Part shown: one piece after another, positions 8,723 through 28,929 of the stretch
How positions within the stretch are numbered: the first letter of the stretch is position 1
Layout of the letters: every line of letters starts with the position of its first letter
Assembly (NCBI RefSeq): GCF_013388945.1
Contig: NZ_JACAEH010000004.1
Coordinates: 186,001-250,000 of the forward strand
Length of the DNA stretch: 64,000 bases
Reading direction: 5' to 3'
Origin: Nitrososphaera sp.
GTDB taxonomy: Archaea; Thermoproteota; Nitrososphaeria; Nitrososphaerales; Nitrososphaeraceae
Translations under genes and position numbers: made by a program
Notes under the pieces: generated by a model
What the model was told of the DNA's origin: nothing
Database searches by the model: none
The model's input: the letters and a program-made list of their open reading frames with translations, nothing else

Positions 8723-11441
8723 AGGCGCAGCTGCTAAAGCCGCACTCGATGCAGATGTTGCACCCTTCCGTGATGATGAGCCTCGCCTTGCACGACGGGC
8801 AGACCTCTTCCTCGTTTGAGGTCAGCACCTGCATTGCCGCCGGCTGCGTCACCTTCTTGGGGACTTCCATCGGGACGACTTCTGCCCTTGGTATGCTCCC
8901 GTCGTCGACGCCGGACTCTTTCAGGATTTTCTGCATCTGCTCAAGCACGTACGGCTCCCTGATGCTGGCCTCGACATAGTCTGCGACGTACCTGCTAGGC
9001 TTGACTGCAAAGCTCTTCTCGCCCGTGTTCTTGCCGGTGATGTGCAGTACCTGCTCCTGCCTAGAGCCATCGCGGAACACGGTCACGCCCTTTAATCCCA
9101 GCTCGTGCGACAGCAGGTACGAGCACTTGACGTCCTCTGCCGTCACGTCGCCGGGCATGTTTATCGTCTTGGCGATTGCGTTAGAGATCCACTTTTGCCA
9201 GACGCCCTGCGCCATGATGTGGTCCATCCAGTGGATGTCTATAGCAGTCACGAACGTCTTTTGCATCCAGTCCGGAATTTCTGCAATGCCGCGCACAGAG
9301 CCGTAGTTGTTCGCAATCTTGGTCAGTATCTCGTCAGAGTACAGGCCGTTTTCCTTGAGCGCGTTCTCGAACACCTTGTCCGTGTAGAAGAACCGGCCTA
9401 CAGTCACGCGCTTTTCGTAGACGAGCGCGAACACCGGCTCGACGCCGTTTGCAGTGTCTGCTATCATCGACAGCGTCCCTGTGGGCGCTATCGTCGATGT
9501 CCACGAGTTGCGGATTCCGGACTTCTTTATCTTTTCAATGAGCGTGGCCCAGTCGTAGGTGTGCGTCTCCTGCGGCAGTTCATAATAGCCGGCAACCGGT
9601 ATCCTGCCCTTGACATAGTCGGTGTCCTTGAACATGGAGAACGGGCCTCTTGTTTTTGCAATCGCGACAGACTCGTCCATGCTAAGATATGAAACAGCTT
9701 CGGCAAGCTTGTTCATGAACTCGTATCCTCCCTTCGAGTTGTAGGGTATCCTGAGCAGGAAAAGCAGGTCTGCGATGCCCATGATGCCGAGGCCTATCCT
9801 GCGCGTGGCGCGCGTGTTGACTTCTATTTCTTCTACAGGGTACTTGTTCATGTCGATGATGTTGTCCAGGAACCTTGTCGACAGCCTGACTGCCTGCTCG
9901 TAGCGCTGCCAGTCAAACTCGTACATGCCGTCGGCCTTGCGCTTGACAAAGTTTGCCAGGTTTATCGAGCCGAGGTTGCATGACTCGTACGGGTAGAGCG
10001 ACTGCTCGCCGCACGGGTTTGTAGCGCGCAGCGGCCCGCCCTTTGCGCCTATGCAGGGGTTGTACTTGTTGATGTTGTCAAAGAAGATGACTCCAGGCTC
10101 GGCGCTCTTCCACGCAGACAGCGCTATCAGGTCGATGAGCTGCTGTGCGTCTATCTGCCTTACCGGCTCGCCAGTGCGCGGGTTGCGCAGCGTGTACTTG
10201 TGGTTGCCTTCCTTGTTTACAAGCGACTTCCAGAAGTCGTCCCAGATGCCGACAGAGACGTTAAAGTTCTCAAACACTCCCGGCTTTGTCTTTGCAGTCA
10301 CGAACTTTTCGACATCAGGGTGCCAGGCTTCAAGGATGCCCATGTTGGCGCCCCTGCGCTTGCCTCCCTGCTTCACCACGTCGGTGATGGTGTCGATTAT
10401 CCTCATGAACGACGTGGGCCCCGACGCCACGCCTGACGTCGACGCGACGATGTCGCCTTCAGGCCTGAGGTCAGAGTAGTTGATGCCGACCCCGCCTCCT
10501 GACTTGAATATCATTGCCGCGTCGGTGGACGACTTCATTATGCGCTCCATGTCGTCGGGCATGTCCAGCACAAAGCAGGCGGAAAGCTGCCCCAGCCTTG
10601 CCCCTGCGTTCATGAGCGTGGGTGTGTTGGGCAGAAAGTCCCTCGAGACCATGAGGTTGTAGTATTCCCTGATGCGCTCGGCGTGCCCTGCCAGCTTGCC
10701 CTCGGCAAGGAGCTTCAGCAGTTCCTTGAAGCTGACCTTCATCTGCCCTGCCTTTGCAGCGTGCACGTAGGCACGCACCATCGCCTCAAAGTGGTAGCGG
10801 TTGAGCCAGTATTCGCCTATCTTGAACTTGCTGTCAAAGTCGGCAAGCTTGGCATAGTATTTTTCTGCCTCCTCGGCATCCTGCCTCTGCCCGCCTGCCA
10901 GACTGAATACCTGCGGGTCGTGTATGATATCGGCGATGCCGACGAGCGTGGCTACACGCTCGAACATCTGCTTGGGGCCCTCGATTATCTCGTTCTGGTC
11001 GTCCCTCAGCAGGTAGCGTGCTGCAAGCACCCGGAGCGAGTTGACGTCAAACGCCTTGTCGACCTCGTCGAGGTCCTTCTTGTTCAGTATCTTCATCTTC
11101 TCCTCGCGTATCTTGCGCCTCTCGTGCCTGTACAGTATGTACGACTTGGCCGTGTCTGCAAGGCCTTCCTCTATCAGTATCGACTCCACCATATCCTGCA
11201 CGTCTTCAACGGTGGCGACTGCCTTCTCTGCGCCAAAGCCCTGCTGCGCCATCTTCTGCACTACCCTTGTGCCGAGCCTTTCTGCCAGCGGATAATCCGG
11301 CCTGCCTGTTGCCACGAGCGCCTTGTAGATTGCATTCGCTATCTTTGACTGTTCAAAAGTAACTATGCGTCCGTCGCGTTTTCTGATCTTTGTGATTAAA
11401 GAAGTCTCTTTCGAGTTGTTAAACTCAGTAACTCCCGCCAT
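8715..11441 (-). CDS. nrdJ: Adenosylcobalamin-dependent (class II) ribonucleotide reductase
   Basis: A 908-residue reductase that makes deoxyribonucleotides using a B12-generated thiyl radical. An N-terminal ATP-cone (about residues 15-110) gives allosteric control by ATP/dATP. The barrel contains the first redox Cys (LSACFVLDMPDDM), the N-P-C-G-E-Q active-site motif near residue 475 and the following ESCNLGSINL. The C-terminal tail carries CPSC and CNICIECG cysteines that re-reduce the active site or bind zinc. No intein is seen. Cobalamin demand fits the cbiE gene at 39.9 kb. The upstream neighbour is an HTH/ATP-cone protein that may regulate it. Confidence 0.95.
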   Translation of the reverse strand: MAGVTEFNNSKETSLITKIRKRDGRIVTFEQSKIANAIYKALVATGRPDYPLAERLGTRVVQKMAQQGFGAEKAVATVEDVQDMVESILIEEGLADTAKSYILYRHERRKIREEKMKILNKKDLDEVDKAFDVNSLRVLAARYLLRDDQNEIIEGPKQMFERVATLVGIADIIHDPQVFSLAGGQRQDAEEAEKYYAKLADFDSKFKIGEYWLNRYHFEAMVRAYVHAAKAGQMKVSFKELLKLLAEGKLAGHAERIREYYNLMVSRDFLPNTPTLMNAGARLGQLSACFVLDMPDDMERIMKSSTDAAMIFKSGGGVGINYSDLRPEGDIVASTSGVASGPTSFMRIIDTITDVVKQGGKRRGANMGILEAWHPDVEKFVTAKTKPGVFENFNVSVGIWDDFWKSLVNKEGNHKYTLRNPRTGEPVRQIDAQQLIDLIALSAWKSAEPGVIFFDNINKYNPCIGAKGGPLRATNPCGEQSLYPYESCNLGSINLANFVKRKADGMYEFDWQRYEQAVRLSTRFLDNIIDMNKYPVEEIEVNTRATRRIGLGIMGIADLLFLLRIPYNSKGGYEFMNKLAEAVSYLSMDESVAIAKTRGPFSMFKDTDYVKGRIPVAGYYELPQETHTYDWATLIEKIKKSGIRNSWTSTIAPTGTLSMIADTANGVEPVFALVYEKRVTVGRFFYTDKVFENALKENGLYSDEILTKIANNYGSVRGIAEIPDWMQKTFVTAIDIHWMDHIMAQGVWQKWISNAIAKTINMPGDVTAEDVKCSYLLSHELGLKGVTVFRDGSRQEQVLHITGKNTGEKSFAVKPSRYVADYVEASIREPYVLEQMQKILKESGVDDGSIPRAEVVPMEVPKKVTQPAAMQVLTSNEEEVCPSCKARLIITEGCNICIECGFSSCASG

Positions 11442-11707
11442 CCCGCCCTATACACCGATACCACTCATACTTTAACTTTCCATGTGAAAAAAATGCATAC
11501 GATGCGTAACGAAAAATACACTTCTGTTTTTTATTGAATGACAATGCAGAATTCAAGCTCAAGTCGTGCAAGAATTTGGCGAAATAAAACAAAGTTTTCA
11601 TTTGTTGTACACAAAGCTGTTGCGGCGGCGCGCCATGTAAGCGTTTACAGCTGACTATCATAATTTTACAGAAAAAAGATACGGCGGGGGGAGCAGCTGC
11701 GCTGCTG

Positions 11708-13765
11708 CTATGCGAGCCTGTGCGGCGACTTGCAGGACTCGCACTTGTCTGCCGACGCCTTTGATTTCTTGCCGCACGTCGCGCACACGGCAAGCGCAAA
11801 GCGCGGGCGCGAAAAGGCAAGCTCTGATGCAGACTCTATCGCACTCTTCACGTCAGCCGCAGAAAGGTCCGTGACGTCGATGGTTGCCGCCAGGCCCCCG
11901 TTGAGAAGTTTGTCTATTGCAGAACACTCTTTTGCCAGGCCCGAGCCCTTTGAAAGGAGCTCTTTACCGCTCAATGTCATTCCCTGGGAATAACTGGTAA
12001 TATTCTGCGACTGGGAGAGCGAGACCCTGCCGTACTTGTCCGAGTCTATTGTGGCAAAGCGCGCTCCAGAGCCATCTGCCACCATCGACACCGCGGCCTC
12101 GTCGCCAAGCTGCTTTGCCTGCGACTGCGCCACTTCGACTGCTGTTTTTAGAACCTTCTGCATCACCTCCGTCCCGCCGTGCGCCGCGTCGTGGCCCAGT
12201 ATGCTGTACACGGCCTCGTGCGCGCCTGTCAGGTTCACGATGACGCCGGTGGTTGCGCGTTGCAAAGATTGCGTGGCAGCCGAGAACGCCGGCAGCATTC
12301 CGCGCTTGGCGTTTTCAAGGACAAGCTTTTTGCGCATCGCCGAAGCCGCAAGCGACGGCTTTATCGCAAGCGCGAGCTTTGCGCGGAAATAGGTCTCGTC
12401 CCTGTTTGACTCGTACGCAAGCCGCGGGAGGTTTATGGAAAGCGAGTGCAGCGTCATTGCCGCAGCAGGGTTCTTGCCTCCGGCAGCTTTTCTGATGCCG
12501 CTTGCAGCACGACCAGATCCGATTGTAACGATGCCGCCGGCGCGAACCGCCGCGGCGACGTGGTCGGCGCTCTCCTTTTTCAGCGCGCCAAGCGAAAGGC
12601 CTATGCGCGGAAGTGGAGTGACGTCGACGTATTTCTTGTAGCCGTCCAAGAGCGCGTTCACCTGCCTGGCGTCTGTCTCCTGCGGCACCGCGATTGTGGT
12701 CGCAGGTCCCGGGCCGGACGCAGAAGACGCGACGAGCGCGCGGCCAAACCTGGACGCAAGGTCGTCAGCGTCCTTGGACTTTGCGAGCGCGGGTGCGACT
12801 CCCTCAAGCACTACCTCGGCTGATGCCTCGTATGCAAGCAGTGGAATGAGCACGGGCAGCGCTGTCAGCATGTCGTCTGCGCCCTTGAGCGACGCAAGCC
12901 TTGCGACAGCGGGGAACCTGCCCTGCAGGTCAAAGCTGTCAAGCTCTGACAGGTCCACAAATATCGTGTCAGGCAAGAGACCCCACGTGCCTGATGAGGC
13001 GATGTTTATCTCGCCGGCAAGGTGCATATCGGCGATGTCCTTTGGCAGTGTGTTAAAGACGAAATACTCTGAAAACACCGCGTCGGCAGTCCTGCCCATG
13101 ACGCCCTGCGCGCCGTTCCTTGTCGCGTCCTCGCTTGCAAGCATGCCGGCGATGTCTGACACCGGCAGGCCGACTCGCGCAAGCTTGTTTCTGTATTCTT
13201 CGTGGCCGTGCTCTATCAATACTGAATTGACAGTCTCGCGGATAAGCGACGACGTGAGGTACGCCGTCTGGAACTTGTAGATCTTGTTCTCGACTTCCTC
13301 GGTTATCTTTTGCGCCTGCTCGAGCGGAAGGCTTGCCTCCCTCACAAGCGACTGGATTATCTTGTGCGAGTTGAATTCCTCTATCGTGTGGTTGCTTGTC
13401 CTGACGTACATCTTGCCGCTCTCGATTATCGAGCGCTCCTCAATCTGCCTGGCAAGGCTCAGCACGAGCTTGCCCAGGTTTGTTATCGTGTAACGGCGCT
13501 CCGCCTTGTTGAGCGCCACCAGCAGCTGCCTCAAAAGCTTCCTGAGGTGGTAGGCGAACTTGCCCGACTCTTTCTTTGACTTGAACCCCGCCAGCGCCTT
13601 CAGTTCCGAGTACGTAAGCGGCCCTTTTGTGTTCAGAATCCGCAGTATATCTATCCTGTTTGGGCTTGCCATCACGGAAAATATCATCCGGACGCGCTTT
13701 GACGCCGATTCCAGGACCCCGCCCTTCCGGGCGCTTTGAGAATAGTCTAGGCTCTCCGTTTCCAT
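11708..13765 (-). CDS. HTH - ATP-cone - degenerate NrdD-like fusion protein
   Basis: A 685-residue protein in three parts. Residues about 20-100 form an ArsR-like winged helix (SPNRIDILRILNTKGPLTYS). Residues about 115-205 form an ATP-cone (IIESGKMYVRTSNHTIEEF onward). Residues about 210-685 resemble the anaerobic class III reductase NrdD (LPKDIADMHLAGEINI) and end in a CxxC...CxxC zinc motif. Only five cysteines exist: one in AKECSAI and four in the zinc site. There are no redox cysteines in the barrel and no C-terminal glycyl-radical motif, so it cannot be a working reductase. Being 266 bp upstream of nrdJ, it may sense nucleotides and control transcription. Confidence 0.75.
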   Translation of the reverse strand: METESLDYSQSARKGGVLESASKRVRMIFSVMASPNRIDILRILNTKGPLTYSELKALAGFKSKKESGKFAYHLRKLLRQLLVALNKAERRYTITNLGKLVLSLARQIEERSIIESGKMYVRTSNHTIEEFNSHKIIQSLVREASLPLEQAQKITEEVENKIYKFQTAYLTSSLIRETVNSVLIEHGHEEYRNKLARVGLPVSDIAGMLASEDATRNGAQGVMGRTADAVFSEYFVFNTLPKDIADMHLAGEINIASSGTWGLLPDTIFVDLSELDSFDLQGRFPAVARLASLKGADDMLTALPVLIPLLAYEASAEVVLEGVAPALAKSKDADDLASRFGRALVASSASGPGPATTIAVPQETDARQVNALLDGYKKYVDVTPLPRIGLSLGALKKESADHVAAAVRAGGIVTIGSGRAASGIRKAAGGKNPAAAMTLHSLSINLPRLAYESNRDETYFRAKLALAIKPSLAASAMRKKLVLENAKRGMLPAFSAATQSLQRATTGVIVNLTGAHEAVYSILGHDAAHGGTEVMQKVLKTAVEVAQSQAKQLGDEAAVSMVADGSGARFATIDSDKYGRVSLSQSQNITSYSQGMTLSGKELLSKGSGLAKECSAIDKLLNGGLAATIDVTDLSAADVKSAIESASELAFSRPRFALAVCATCGKKSKASADKCESCKSPHRLA

Positions 13766-24343: not shown

Positions 24344-25813
24344 TTGGTACTGCAAAGTGAGATAAAGAGTGCCCTTTCGTATGCCACAAGCAAAGGGTAC
24401 CAGATCCACCCCGACGCCTTTGCGATGCTAAAGGGCCTGCAGGGCGACCTGCTAAAGGCAGTGCAGGACATCATCAGGCAGAAAAAGTCCGGCAGTCCTG
24501 TTATTGTTGTTGACGACGTGAAAGGATTGATTGCGCCTGAAAGCGCGGCTGAAGCGCCGCCGGCCGAGCAGAAATCGGAGGTGCTGATGGACTCGTCGCC
24601 GGCGGTAAACACCGGCGAGGGCGTCGACGGCTATGCGCTACTGTTCAAGAGCCGCTATGAAAAGACGATGCGCATCCTGGCGCAGAGGCCTGACAGCAGG
24701 AGGATAGCCAAGATATCGACTGTAAAACAGAACGGCCGCTCCGGCAGCGTCAAGGGCGAGAGGAGCCTCGGCAACGCCGGCACCCAGATTATCGCCGGGC
24801 TCTTGATGTCGAGGCGGCAGAGGAAGAACGGCATAGAGCTTGAGATAGACGACTATACCGGCAGGATGCAGGTTATTGCAGCGACAGAAGATGCGAGAAA
24901 GGCCGCGTCGGCGCTTGCGCTCGACCAGGTCGTTATGCTCGAGCTTGAAAACGCCAAGGGCGTGCCCGGGCTTTCCATAAAGAGCGTGTTTTCGCCGGAC
25001 ATCCCCGACCACCTGCCGAGCAGGAGCAAGTCGGAGGCGTACGCGGTGCTCATATCCGACATGCACGTCGGGAGCAAGTATTTCATGGAGCAAGAGTTTC
25101 TGCGATTCTTGGACTGGCTGTCGTCTGACGACGACGTGGTGCGCAAGATAAGTTTCCTGTGCATCGGTGGCGACGTAATAGACGGCATCGGCATCTTTCC
25201 AAACCAGGACAAGGAGCTTTTGATGATGGATGCGGCAAGCCAGATGGGCCACGCCACGAAGTTGCTGTCGAAGATCCCAAAGCGAATAAAGACGTTCATA
25301 ATCCCCGGCAACCACGACCCGGGCCGGCGGGCGCTTCCGCAGCCGGGATTCCCGCAGGCCACGTCGGGCGGGCTGTACGGCCTTGAGAACTGCGAGGTCC
25401 TCGGCAACCCGGCGATGGTAAGCCTCAACGGCGTCAAGGTCCTCATGTTCCACGGGCAGAGCCTCGACGACGTGATAGCGACGACGCCAGGCCTCAGCTA
25501 CCAGCGGCCTGCAGAGGCGATGAAAGTGTTGCTGAAGGCGAGGCACCTCTCGCCCACCTACGGCGAGCGCACGCCCATCGCGCCCGAGGCCGAGGACATG
25601 ATGGTGATGACAGAGATCCCGGACATACTGCATTCGGGGCACGTCCACGTGACCGACGTTGACAGCTACCGCGGGACGCTTGTTGTGAATTCCGGCGCGT
25701 GGCAGGCGCAGACAAAATTCCAGCAGACGATGGGCATCACGCCGTCGCCCGGCATCGCTATCGTCGTCAATTTAGCTACGATGCAGCCGTTCAAAAAGGA
25801 CTTCAATCAATAA
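24344..25813 (+). CDS. dp1: DNA polymerase D small subunit (DP1), exonuclease
   Basis: A 489-residue protein taken from TTG at 24344, because the family N terminus (LQSEIKSALSYATSKGYQIHP) begins there. An OB-fold lies near residues 130-220, followed by a calcineurin-like phosphoesterase domain with ISDMHVG (about 235), GGDVID (273), PGNHDP (320), FHGQS (368) and GHVH (431). This is the Mre11-like 3'-5' proofreading nuclease of PolD. The large subunit is encoded at 29762. Its 3' end overlaps the convergent orc1/cdc6 gene by 11 bp. Confidence 0.94.
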   Translation: MVLQSEIKSALSYATSKGYQIHPDAFAMLKGLQGDLLKAVQDIIRQKKSGSPVIVVDDVKGLIAPESAAEAPPAEQKSEVLMDSSPAVNTGEGVDGYALLFKSRYEKTMRILAQRPDSRRIAKISTVKQNGRSGSVKGERSLGNAGTQIIAGLLMSRRQRKNGIELEIDDYTGRMQVIAATEDARKAASALALDQVVMLELENAKGVPGLSIKSVFSPDIPDHLPSRSKSEAYAVLISDMHVGSKYFMEQEFLRFLDWLSSDDDVVRKISFLCIGGDVIDGIGIFPNQDKELLMMDAASQMGHATKLLSKIPKRIKTFIIPGNHDPGRRALPQPGFPQATSGGLYGLENCEVLGNPAMVSLNGVKVLMFHGQSLDDVIATTPGLSYQRPAEAMKVLLKARHLSPTYGERTPIAPEAEDMMVMTEIPDILHSGHVHVTDVDSYRGTLVVNSGAWQAQTKFQQTMGITPSPGIAIVVNLATMQPFKKDFNQ

Positions 25814-27074
25814 ATTCTGAAAGCACCGGGTCGTCCTTGAGCGCGGCCTTTATGGTCGCAAGCGGGACCGTTGCCTTGATCTTTTGCGACCGGCCGTACC
25901 GCCCCTGGTTTATGATGTCAGTCGATATCAGGCCGAGCTGGTCCATCCTGCTTATTATCTGGGTCATCCTGCGCTGTGTGAGAGGGTCGTGGTCGGCCTG
26001 CCTGCATAGCGACGAGTAGATTTCGTATACCTCGCCGGTGTTGCCGTTCTTTGATCTTGTTATCGCCACCAGAACCAGCTTTTCGTGCAGCGTCGCGTTC
26101 TGGATGAAATCAAGGTTTTCGTCCTTCTCTATCTTTTCCTGCGCGGCGCGCACGTGCTTTTCTTCCACCTTGGCCGCGTGCGCCCGCTCGGCAAGCTCTG
26201 CTGCAACGCGCAGAAGGTTGATGGCCATCCTGGCGTCGCCGTGCTCCCTGCCTGCAAGCGCCGCGCACAGGTTGGTGGCGGCGTCGGTTACTGCGCCTTC
26301 GTTGAACGCTATCTTGATGCGCTCTGCAAGTATCTGCCTGAGCTGCTCGACAGAGTAGGAATTGAACACCATCTCCTCTTCAGACAGGCTGCTCCTGACG
26401 CGCGGGTCGAGCTTGTCCTTGAACGTGAGGCTGTTGGATATGCCGATTAGAGTGATGAACCCTCCTTTGGCCATGCGCTCGTTTGCCCTCGTGAACGAGT
26501 AGAGCACGTCGTCGCCGTTCTTGTCTACAAGCGAGTCAATCTCATCTATCACCAGAATCACGTGCATCTTGTTTTTCTGGATGAACTGCAGGATCCTGTC
26601 GGTGGCCTCGCCCATGGAAAGCCCGGTAAAGTGCACTTTCTTTTCCTGCCTGTTTATTCCGAGGTTCTCTGCGATTTCGTAGAGGATCTTGTAGGCGCTG
26701 TTGGCAAGTTTCGCGTTTATGACGGGCACCGTTATTTCGACGCCAAGCTCGCCGGCTTTTTTTATCAGCCTGTCAACGACTGACTTTACCACCGCCGTCT
26801 TACCTGTCCCCGGTTTGCCGAACAAAAGCAAATTCGACGGGCGCCCCGGCTCTTTTTTCAGGACAGTTGACAGCGTTTCTGCAAGGCCCCGCGCTTCTTC
26901 GTCCCTGAACGGAAGTCTGTCAGGCACGTAGTCTATAGTGAGTGCCTGCCTGCTCTTGACAAGCGACTTGCCGCTTGCGGCCCTGTCAAAGATGTTGTCG
27001 ATGTCGCTCGTGCACCCGCACCCCTGTCTTTCCTTTCGAAATGTCTTGTTTGTTAAGGTTGCCTTAACACTCAT
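25803..27074 (-). CDS. cdc6: Origin recognition protein Orc1/Cdc6
   Basis: A 423-residue initiator. The AAA+ domain carries GKPGTGKTAVVKS near residue 90, VIDEIDSLVD near 176 and an R-A-N-E-R-M sensor region. The C-terminal winged helix (about residues 325-415) includes LTQRRMTQIISRMDQLGLIS for DNA contact. A Cys cluster near the N terminus (GCGCTSD) is unusual. It binds ORB elements, and two near-consensus ORBs lie 195-275 bp upstream of its start, so the gene abuts its own predicted origin. Confidence 0.95.
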   Translation of the reverse strand: MSVKATLTNKTFRKERQGCGCTSDIDNIFDRAASGKSLVKSRQALTIDYVPDRLPFRDEEARGLAETLSTVLKKEPGRPSNLLLFGKPGTGKTAVVKSVVDRLIKKAGELGVEITVPVINAKLANSAYKILYEIAENLGINRQEKKVHFTGLSMGEATDRILQFIQKNKMHVILVIDEIDSLVDKNGDDVLYSFTRANERMAKGGFITLIGISNSLTFKDKLDPRVRSSLSEEEMVFNSYSVEQLRQILAERIKIAFNEGAVTDAATNLCAALAGREHGDARMAINLLRVAAELAERAHAAKVEEKHVRAAQEKIEKDENLDFIQNATLHEKLVLVAITRSKNGNTGEVYEIYSSLCRQADHDPLTQRRMTQIISRMDQLGLISTDIINQGRYGRSQKIKATVPLATIKAALKDDPVLSEFID

Positions 27075-27268
27075 GTTAACAGGGCGTTTTTAAACCGACG
27101 AATCAACCCTAGCTACTAAACGTATCAGCTGGTACGAGCTTGATAGGTGAGATGATGAGACGCGCTGTGGACAGGAAAGTAAGGGGTGGCTGTCTAGTTG
27201 AAAAAAGGCGCCGGTAACAGGCCTGTCAATAAAGTGATCATGGGCCATGGAAAGGAGCCCAAAAACGA

Positions 27269-27288
27269 CCCCTTTGTTTCCACTGGAG
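27269..27288 (-). promoter_or_regulatory. ORB element 1
   Basis: The minus strand reads CTCCAGTGGAAACAAAGGGG. This matches the archaeal origin recognition box consensus (TCCAGTGGAAAC, a short spacer, then a G run) as I know it from Sulfolobus and Pyrococcus. Confidence 0.88.
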
Positions 27289-27301
27289 CGTTAAGGTGGT
27301 G

Positions 27302-27405
27302 GTTAACAATGTTAACGGGCGCAAGGGAGACCCCTCCATTTCCACTGGAACCAGAAGGGCCGACTTTTCTACGGCAAAACAGGTTAACCGGGCAGGCTTG
27401 TTAAC
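27302..27405. repeat. GTTAAC repeats in the origin
   Basis: The 6-bp palindrome GTTAAC occurs at 27302, 27311, 27383 and 27400, with a fifth copy at 27075 in the cdc6 start region. The first two are tandem, 9 bp apart. Chance expectation in 330 bp is about 0.1, so they may be protein-binding or unwinding elements. Confidence 0.6.
27331..27350 (-). promoter_or_regulatory. ORB element 2
   Basis: The minus strand reads TTCCAGTGGAAATGGAGGGG, with the dyad TTCCAGTGGAA fully intact and the G run kept. It lies 62 bp from ORB 1 and points the same way; two GTTAAC sites lie between them. Confidence 0.85.
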
Positions 27406-27513
27406 GAATCAGGCACGCGTCCCATGCACAGCTAACAACAGCTAGCTAAATTGTTATCATGTTTGACACAAGCTCTGTTAAGTGTTAAGGTGTTAGCTGG
27501 TGAACTACTTCCG

Positions 27514-27960
27514 ATGCCAGGGCGTAAAAAGTTCCGCATAGAGCTGGAGGACGCCGAGGGGAGCAAGTACAACCTCTCTCTAGAGGGCAATATCTCCAAG
27601 GACAAGATAGTCAAGATAATGGAGTTCATGGACCTCCTCAACATGGAAGGCGAGGTGCCCCGTGACATCGAGATATCCAAGCCTGCGTCGGTGGGCGACA
27701 GGATATGGGCGCTTGTCGATGCGAAATTCCCGTACGGCAGCTTCACCTCGTCTGACATCCTTGAATTATACGAGGACTCGTACAACGAGCCGATAAAGCT
27801 GAGCATAATCTCCACTTATCTCTCAAGGTATGCAGAACGTGGCAGGCTCGTGCGAACCCGCCAGGGAAAAGAGTGGGTGTATAAAACCACTAGGCAGCCC
27901 GCTGCAGGCCGGGTGCCTGAGCAGGTCTCTCCTTCAGCCTCGCTTGACCCGCTTCAGTGA
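27514..27960 (+). CDS. Conserved-looking protein next to oriC, possible winged helix
   Basis: A 148-residue protein from ATG at 27514 (MPGRKKFRIELED). The N-terminal 40 residues look like a small beta unit (FRIELEDAEGSKYNLSLEGN). The middle and end (GDRIWALVDAKFPYGSFTSSDILELYEDSY...SIISTYLSRYAERGRLVRTRQGKEWVYK) have the helix pattern of a winged helix with a basic wing. It faces away from the origin and overlaps the convergent gene by 71 bp. A role in replication is inferred from position only. Confidence 0.65.
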   Translation: MPGRKKFRIELEDAEGSKYNLSLEGNISKDKIVKIMEFMDLLNMEGEVPRDIEISKPASVGDRIWALVDAKFPYGSFTSSDILELYEDSYNEPIKLSIISTYLSRYAERGRLVRTRQGKEWVYKTTRQPAAGRVPEQVSPSASLDPLQ

Positions 27961-28504
27961 TTGCGTAGCGGAACGGCTTGCTGTTCAGGTCTCTGCTCAC
28001 GAGGCCGGCGTCGTGCAGCTTTTTCATGAGGCGCGCCGTGTGCTCGCGGGTCCTGCCAATAGCGCTCTGCACGTCGCGTGAAGTGCGGGGCCTCTCCATC
28101 AGCAGCTTCAGGATATAGTCTGTGGTGCCGTTCTGCGCCTCATCTGTGACCTGCGGATGCTGCGTGACTGCAACAGGCTCACTCACGGGCTGCGCGTGAG
28201 TCGGGGCCGGCTGTGACGGCGTCACGGTGGCGTGAGGTTGCGTGAGTGACTGGGACTTTGCCTCGACGATGTCAAGCCGGGCACGCATCTCCGCTATTAC
28301 ACGGTCATAGTCCTTGAGCCTGCGTGAATATTCCATCACGACTGCTTCGACCACGGTGTCGTCGGCGTGATAGTCACGCTTTGCGCCGCGACGAAGCTTG
28401 TTCACTGACATCACTGTGACAAGGCCGACGCCGTAGGAGAGCACGCCGTATATCACGTAGTCAAGGTTGATCGTGATGCCTACATAGGGTAACTCTAGGA
28501 ACAT
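27890..28504 (-). CDS. Membrane-anchored winged-helix DNA-binding protein
   Basis: A 204-residue protein. Residues about 14-35 (LDYVIYGVLSYGVGLVTVMSV) form one membrane helix followed by a basic stop (RRGAKRD). Then come a helical segment (about 50-85), a Pro/Gln/Thr/Val-rich linker (about 88-128), and a C-terminal MarR/ArsR-like winged helix (SRDVQSAIGRTREHTARLMKKLHDAGLV). It would hold DNA at the inner membrane face. The gene itself is filled with TCACG motifs, and its TATA-like box (28533-28541) is followed by one at 28528. Known families do not give a precise function. Confidence 0.72.
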   Translation of the reverse strand: MFLELPYVGITINLDYVIYGVLSYGVGLVTVMSVNKLRRGAKRDYHADDTVVEAVVMEYSRRLKDYDRVIAEMRARLDIVEAKSQSLTQPHATVTPSQPAPTHAQPVSEPVAVTQHPQVTDEAQNGTTDYILKLLMERPRTSRDVQSAIGRTREHTARLMKKLHDAGLVSRDLNSKPFRYAITEAGQARLKERPAQAPGLQRAA

Positions 28505-28660
28505 ATCACGACTTTGCCACCGAAAACCGTGATTTAATGTTACAGACCAAACTTTGTTTACAACTTGGACATTCTTTTTACAAGCGTGTCCATCACGGAT
28601 ATCACGTCGGCCAGGCGTGTTTCGTCGATGATGTCACTGGAATCTGCGCTCAATATCACG
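27997..28660. repeat. Dense cluster of TCACG/ATCACG motifs
   Basis: I count 19 copies of TCACG or its complement: 27997, 28077, 28163, 28183, 28195, 28222, 28231, 28241, 28323, 28336, 28366, 28374, 28453, 28472, 28506, 28528, 28593, 28602 and 28656. Chance expectation is about 1.3. From 28336 onward nine of ten are ATCACG. They occur in both orientations, in two genes and in the 53-bp gap between them, so codon use alone does not explain them. Confidence 0.7.
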
Positions 28661-28929
28661 CCCAGTTGCTCTGCCAGGCGGGCCAGAGTGCCCAGCGCTT
28701 CGGGCTGGAGCACGCCCGTCGATTGCAGAAGGAGCACGCTGTAAAGCACGCCTGCCACCTTGTCCCTGCACTGCTTCACCTGCCTGTAATACGCTCCTGA
28801 ACTGATGTTCTGCGCCCGGCCGCGCCTGTTCAGCTGGTTGGAAATTATCGCCAGCTGGCGCGGTGTAAATAGAGAATTTGCAACAAGCTGATTCAAAACT
28901 GCGTTAGATTTCGATCCTGACCCGGCCAT
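28558..28929 (-). CDS. Small putative DNA-binding protein near oriC, 123 aa
   Basis: A basic, helical protein. Residues about 18-50 (NSLFTPRQLAIISNQLNRRGR) look like a helix-turn-helix of a type seen in small archaeal regulators. The C-terminal half is helical (YYRQVKQCRDKVAGVLYSVLLLQ, then two more helices), suitable for dimerisation. It lies 53 bp upstream of the membrane-anchored winged-helix gene on the same strand, so the two may form an operon. A perfect dyad sits 7 bp before its start. No exact family recognised. Confidence 0.62.
   Translation of the reverse strand: MAGSGSKSNAVLNQLVANSLFTPRQLAIISNQLNRRGRAQNISSGAYYRQVKQCRDKVAGVLYSVLLLQSTGVLQPEALGTLARLAEQLGVILSADSSDIIDETRLADVISVMDTLVKRMSKL

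Follow-up and report, generated by a model that had tools for sequence, protein, structure and literature searches.

The window, i.e. the whole 64,000-nucleotide stretch of DNA analysed here, carries a predicted replication origin with the gene order DP1-like gene, cdc6, origin DNA, A, B, C, GGGP synthase (GGGPS) and DP2. The replication initiator gene cdc6/orc1 (25803..27074, minus strand), recognised by its Cdc6_C and Cdc6_lid matches, adjoins the predicted origin. Two ORB-like elements, TTTCCACTGGA, are placed by motif position at 27277 and 27339 (27277..27349, plus strand). Gene A (27514..27960, plus strand; longest open reading frame from 27451) encodes about 148 residues with a winged-helix-like C-terminus, is convergent with gene B and overlaps its end. 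Gene B (27890..28504, minus strand) encodes 204 residues, and gene C (28558..28929, minus strand), its upstream neighbour in most lineages, encodes an all-helical protein of 123 residues. Two motif clusters, GTTAA and CGTGA, are found side by side at the predicted origin. The GTTAAC/TGTTAA cluster (27051..27488, no strand assigned) occupies the cdc6–A intergenic origin DNA. No other 5-mer clusters more strongly in the window, and throughout the class this cluster is conserved in its position, with up to 5 copies per 100 bp per locus. It adjoins a second, separate cluster, the ATCACG/TCACG array (27997..28660, no strand assigned), which covers gene B, the B–C gap and the 3′ part of gene C. GC skew in two genomes (G015 and G058) gives no information on the origin position. 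In Nitrosopumilus maritimus a single origin has been mapped experimentally, according to work cited in PMC4010727.

The original prediction described nineteen TCACG/CGTGA in about 660 bp, and our recount returns the same number. These 19 sites start at 27997–28656, while 1.46 per 660 bp are expected from the window mean (Poisson P ~3e-15). The further details agree as well: nine of the last ten sites are ATCACG, the sites occur in both orientations within gene B, the B–C gap and gene C, and the two ORB-like elements, placed by the prediction about 650 bp away, lie about 660 bp from the array. A cluster scan of all 512 canonical 5-mers at every position of the 64 kb gives two far outliers, GTTAA at 27052 (log10 P −18.1) and CGTGA at 27997 (log10 P −14.5). 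The whole window holds 142 TCACG/CGTGA, and the runner-up 660-bp stretch contains 8. This second-best local concentration, at about 1137–1800, is remote from the origin. Over 400 kb of the contig that carries the window, the array is the single TCACG outlier, with 19 sites followed by stretches of 8, 6 and 6, and in 400-kb samples of three genomes it is the top cluster in each. No comparable density is found at unrelated loci of these samples, so that the cluster is local; uniqueness within the genome is based on these three samples together with triple-site pattern searches in ten genomes. To be noted, a repeat-rich region in another genome (G058 C1:1450001-1470000, about 9400–12200 of that locus) has high CTCAG and ATCACG counts and a strong GC skew and is unrelated to B.

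TCACG is the GC-rich form of the array site in this genome. The core in the relatives is A-H-A-T-C-A-C-R, which reads YGTGAT on the opposite strand. Of 80 loci from named GTDB species of the class, 79 have their best 800-bp ATCAC window at the array on B, and the eightieth is a tie. These loci contain 7–20 ATCAC per 800 bp compared with about 2–3 expected, and the species include members of Nitrosopumilus, Nitrosarchaeum, Nitrosotenuis and Nitrosocosmicus. The array is present at B in all Nitrososphaera genomes with enough sequence, and close relatives that keep both proteins are never without it. It is also found in sister classes of the phylum. A k-mer enrichment with no prior choice of word returns ATATCAC and ACATCAC, an unbiased scan of families f19 and f22 of the class gives ATCAC as the top 5-mer, and the top words in lineages lacking C are ATCAC and TCACA. 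The preferred flanks are A-H-ATCAC-R; an EM position matrix of the sites collapsed to a strand-symmetric form and was set aside. At the genus level about ten sites are fixed in place and others are gained or lost, at 61–74% DNA identity. Same-strand site pairs are phased at 10.5 bp within the class (R 0.29–0.30), and a jitter test on all pairs gives P<=0.0005; shared descent confounds both values. Helical phasing was also looked for in other orders and none was seen. One locus (L040 of G008, 9618–10420) carries an expanded array at B and C, with 25 TCACG and 24 ATCAC in 800 bp. From this distribution the array appears to be very old, older than the class Nitrososphaeria.

Part of the cluster falls on the repetitive Pro/His/Val linker of B, and one conserved TCACG coincides with S-R-E-H codons, as would be expected if the array were a by-product of codon usage or of a repetitive protein sequence. 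The recoding tests rule out such an artefact, and we regard its probability as practically negligible. Gene B of the window contains 14 TCACG, where its codon and amino-acid composition predicts 3.1–5.3, and none of 5000 recodings reached 14. When synonymous codons are shuffled or redrawn over 39 loci, B has 199 sites against 66–88 expected and C has 127 against 34–63. GGGPS is also in excess (96 against 46–51), and the controls cdc6 (46 against 51) and DP2 (57 against 54–59) show no excess. Furthermore, the non-coding DNA has sites too. Selection acting directly on the DNA thus maintains a dense array of AHATCACR half-sites, and this array is tied to gene B. As it recurs at the orthologous locus, exceeds the codon needs and tops the 400-kb samples, the array is no sequence accident.

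Gene B is the predicted reader of the array. The original prediction described the cluster as covering a gene for a membrane-anchored DNA-binding protein, and in our analysis B indeed combines a predicted N-terminal TM helix with a coiled coil, a disordered variable linker and a C-terminal winged helix. The TM helix spans approximately residues 14–36 (28397..28465, minus strand). The sequence NKLRRGAKR follows it directly, and the winged helix is therefore predicted to lie inside the cell. A TM-like hydrophobic segment is present in 78 of 78 class orthologues and in none of the B proteins of families f27, f29 and f48. Of 61 relatives, 50 carry an orthologue of B, and among the good genomes of the class B is present in 121 of 124, usually as one strong match; a search of viral contigs for B found none. 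The profile of B matches the recognition helices of CRP/Vfr and CAP in the PDB, with a chain E-value of 4e-4 (weak, 0.1, for the single stretch by itself), and in Pfam the HTH_Crp_2 match is below threshold (E 0.004). A single-sequence structure prediction of B was too poor for use (pLDDT 41.8). In particular, residues R153-E154-H155-T156-A157-R158 (codons at 28031..28048, minus strand) align as an RExxxR recognition helix with the spacing of R180-E181-R185 in CRP, and R153, E154, H155 and R158 of this REHTAR stretch are invariant in the alignment. In the RETVGR helix of CRP, R180, E181 and R185 read G2 and G4:C4 of TGTGA (PMC11253593), and base contacts of CRP are also reported in PMC12531629. 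The array site, YGTGAT, would therefore match the predicted DNA-reading face of B. B shares with CRP/FNR this recognition helix and the TGTGA(T) half-site; it differs in having a TM helix and a coiled coil, and no Pfam match to the cNMP-binding sensor domain is found. CRP-type TGTGA-N6-TCACA palindromes were searched for as an alternative form of the array and not found: the N6 arrangement is not enriched, and orientations and spacings are mixed.

Natural variation among the relatives separates the array from its other neighbours. In f22 genomes cdc6 lies at least 5 kb off and C is inverted, and the array is still on B (4.5x, P 6e-17). At the f27 and f48 loci ATCAC is enriched 2.8x (P 3.5e-30) although B has no TM helix there; C is not detectable at these loci and cdc6 is absent from the fetched region. 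At three f29 loci C, cdc6, GGGPS and DP2 are all in place, R153 of B is replaced by K or E, and the array is gone (1.1x). The four loci of this family (L297–L300) have a B without TM helix, and K or E stands at the first arginine of RExxxR in three of them. GAAAGA-type words are enriched at these four loci instead of ATCAC. Anagrams of ATCAC remain near 1x, except TCACA, which overlaps the same site. Exceptions are L277, L278, L297, L304 and family f18, with an intact recognition helix and a weak or no array. The array thus follows gene B and not cdc6. An origin element bound by Cdc6 is ruled out by this decoupling, a test of linkage alone, in which a relocated cdc6 leaves the array behind at B.

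The motif, the recognition helix and the natural variation agree in pointing to B. Since the array is present in lineages lacking C, and is missing at three loci that have C and cdc6 but in which K or E replaces the first arginine, B is, as judged from sequence, very probably the reader. C or A might take this role instead, which we consider very unlikely. C is a class-wide conserved family beside the array, with invariant S..T..Q..I and GAYYR..Q motifs, and its modelled helices 23–33 and 44–70 could form a helix-turn-helix. No relative of C is found in Pfam, NCBIfam or the PDB, and a Foldseek search with a good model (pLDDT 84.6) gives no match. However, C and the array are doubly dissociated, with an array and no C in f27/f48 and C without an array in f29, which disfavours C. 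A sits beside B nearly everywhere, but it is present both with and without the array, and the CRP-type, GTGA-reading RExxxR is found in B only. To be noted, A is convergent with B almost everywhere, even in lineages without nearby cdc6 or C (L284–L296), so that A and B look like a conserved pair.

B and its array can be compared with several known systems. The likeness to ParB–parS lies in the origin-side cluster of sites, the reader gene on or beside the cluster and the sites within genes. B differs in being a predicted membrane protein and no ParB/Srx protein, and a 16-bp palindrome there stands against an array of short half-sites here. No ParB family is matched by B in Pfam or NCBIfam, and the PDB search gives only a sub-threshold helix-turn-helix match to ParB chains (E 0.065). 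There is also no parA beside B, whose neighbours are A, C, cdc6, GGGPS and DP2; the nearest AAA_31 matches are elsewhere in the genome. ToxR and CadC are membrane-bound one-component regulators with a TM helix and a winged helix in one chain. B shares both elements, but its topology is opposite, with the winged helix C-terminal, and it is accompanied by an origin-side array of 10–25 sites. TubR and AspA are winged helix-turn-helix centromere binders of plasmids, which bind arrays or spread from a site. AspA is also treated in PMC5120986. B is likewise a winged-helix protein; it has no TubZ or ParA/ParB neighbour, and no sequence match to these binders in the PDB. In Bacillus, Noc and RacA attach sites of the chromosome to the membrane or the pole, and the Noc sites are scattered. 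The membrane tie proposed below is alike, whereas the proteins and motifs are unrelated. Among archaea, SegAB has been reported from Crenarchaea and Euryarchaea, and SegB of Sulfolobales binds the 13-bp palindrome TCTAGA-S-TCTAGA with a ParA partner (PMC5120986, PMC12284271). This archaeal system resembles the present one in having its sites near the reader genes and mostly intragenic. B differs from it in fold, motif (AHATCACR) and neighbourhood, and no AAA_31 ATPase that could form a SegA–SegB pair is found among the neighbours of B.

An array of 10–25 half-sites on the origin side, with a predicted membrane protein as reader, suggests a tether or centromere. We give about an even chance (roughly 0.5) to the reading that the array is a protein-binding array read by the B protein encoded within it and acts as a centromere-like or anchoring site. 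In this mechanism the winged helix of B would read GTGA via its CRP-like RExxxR helix, a step that is strongly indicated. The N-terminal helix would place B in the membrane, the coiled coil would dimerise or cluster it, and the flexible linker would reach the DNA, so that origin-side DNA could be kept at the membrane by many B molecules. Once replicated, origins might be positioned for segregation by such a centromere or anchor, and C and A may be partners in this. The sites between C and B probably also allow B to control its own genes. The B proteins of f27 and f48, which keep the array and have no TM helix, indicate that membrane anchoring would not be the sole role and that an anchor of its own is not needed everywhere. 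The original prediction of a parS-like or anchoring array for B thus stands for the local clustering, the conservation in relatives and the matching recognition helix; binding by B and a role in segregation or anchoring are what we infer.

The main rival explanation takes B as a one-component regulator, possibly membrane-bound, and the array as its own extended operator for the C and B genes with no part in chromosome positioning. It draws on the position of the array, which is always at B's own gene. In Nitrosopumilales-type loci the site density peaks at the C–B junction and the start of B, in lineages lacking C it peaks upstream of B, and two genus-wide conserved sites fall in the C–B gap. 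However, 10–25 sites over 700–900 bp, many of them inside the genes C and B, and also inside GGGPS in some lineages, are far more than an operator. The excess at synonymous positions of C and B also speaks against it, as do two loci (L260 and L262) with the array in the body of B, 3′ of its start. Autoregulation as the whole explanation therefore seems doubtful to us. Sites of the parS type can also regulate, and for this reason anchoring and autoregulation may both be true in part. The array could alternatively control replication initiation, with B holding the origin at the membrane or titrating a factor and thereby timing or limiting firing, comparable to sequestration or datA in bacteria. 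For most of the class, and for several families outside it, the array does lie within about 1 kb of the ORBs and of cdc6, but it remains at B where cdc6 is at least 5 kb away or outside the fetched region, and it is lost in f29 loci with cdc6 and C unchanged. We judge this to be unlikely. The other reading of the original prediction, a cluster of methylation motifs close to the origin, comparable to GATC at oriC of E. coli, is not supported and is extremely improbable. The local density beside the origin would fit it, but the site is non-palindromic and follows gene B rather than the origin. Furthermore, one core is kept throughout the class and beyond it in other classes, a span over which restriction-modification specificities would be expected to change, and we reject the methylation cluster on this conservation and asymmetry.

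The reader–array pair on the origin side of these archaea is real, ancient and undescribed: among the open-licence papers searched, none describes B, C or the array. It is a tentative proposal, somewhat short of even odds, that B and the ATCAC array form an undescribed chromosomal centromere or anchoring system which predates the class Nitrososphaeria and is common to its sister lineages. A membrane-anchored CRP-type winged helix would here hold origin-side DNA in archaea without reported SegAB. The nature and clustering of archaeal centromeres were named as an outstanding question in a 2016 review (PMC5120986). The locus bears on how chromosomes are inherited in archaea outside Sulfolobales: it offers a specific site, a reader whose contact residues are predicted, and two genes as candidate partners, with conservation in both soil and marine ammonia-oxidising archaea. 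The small proteins and the short DNA make each step accessible in vitro. As regards ParA-like ATPases, Nitrosopumilaceae and the present genome have only AAA_31 matches of Mrp-like length, and several complete Nitrososphaeraceae genomes carry ParA-like ATPases away from the B locus.
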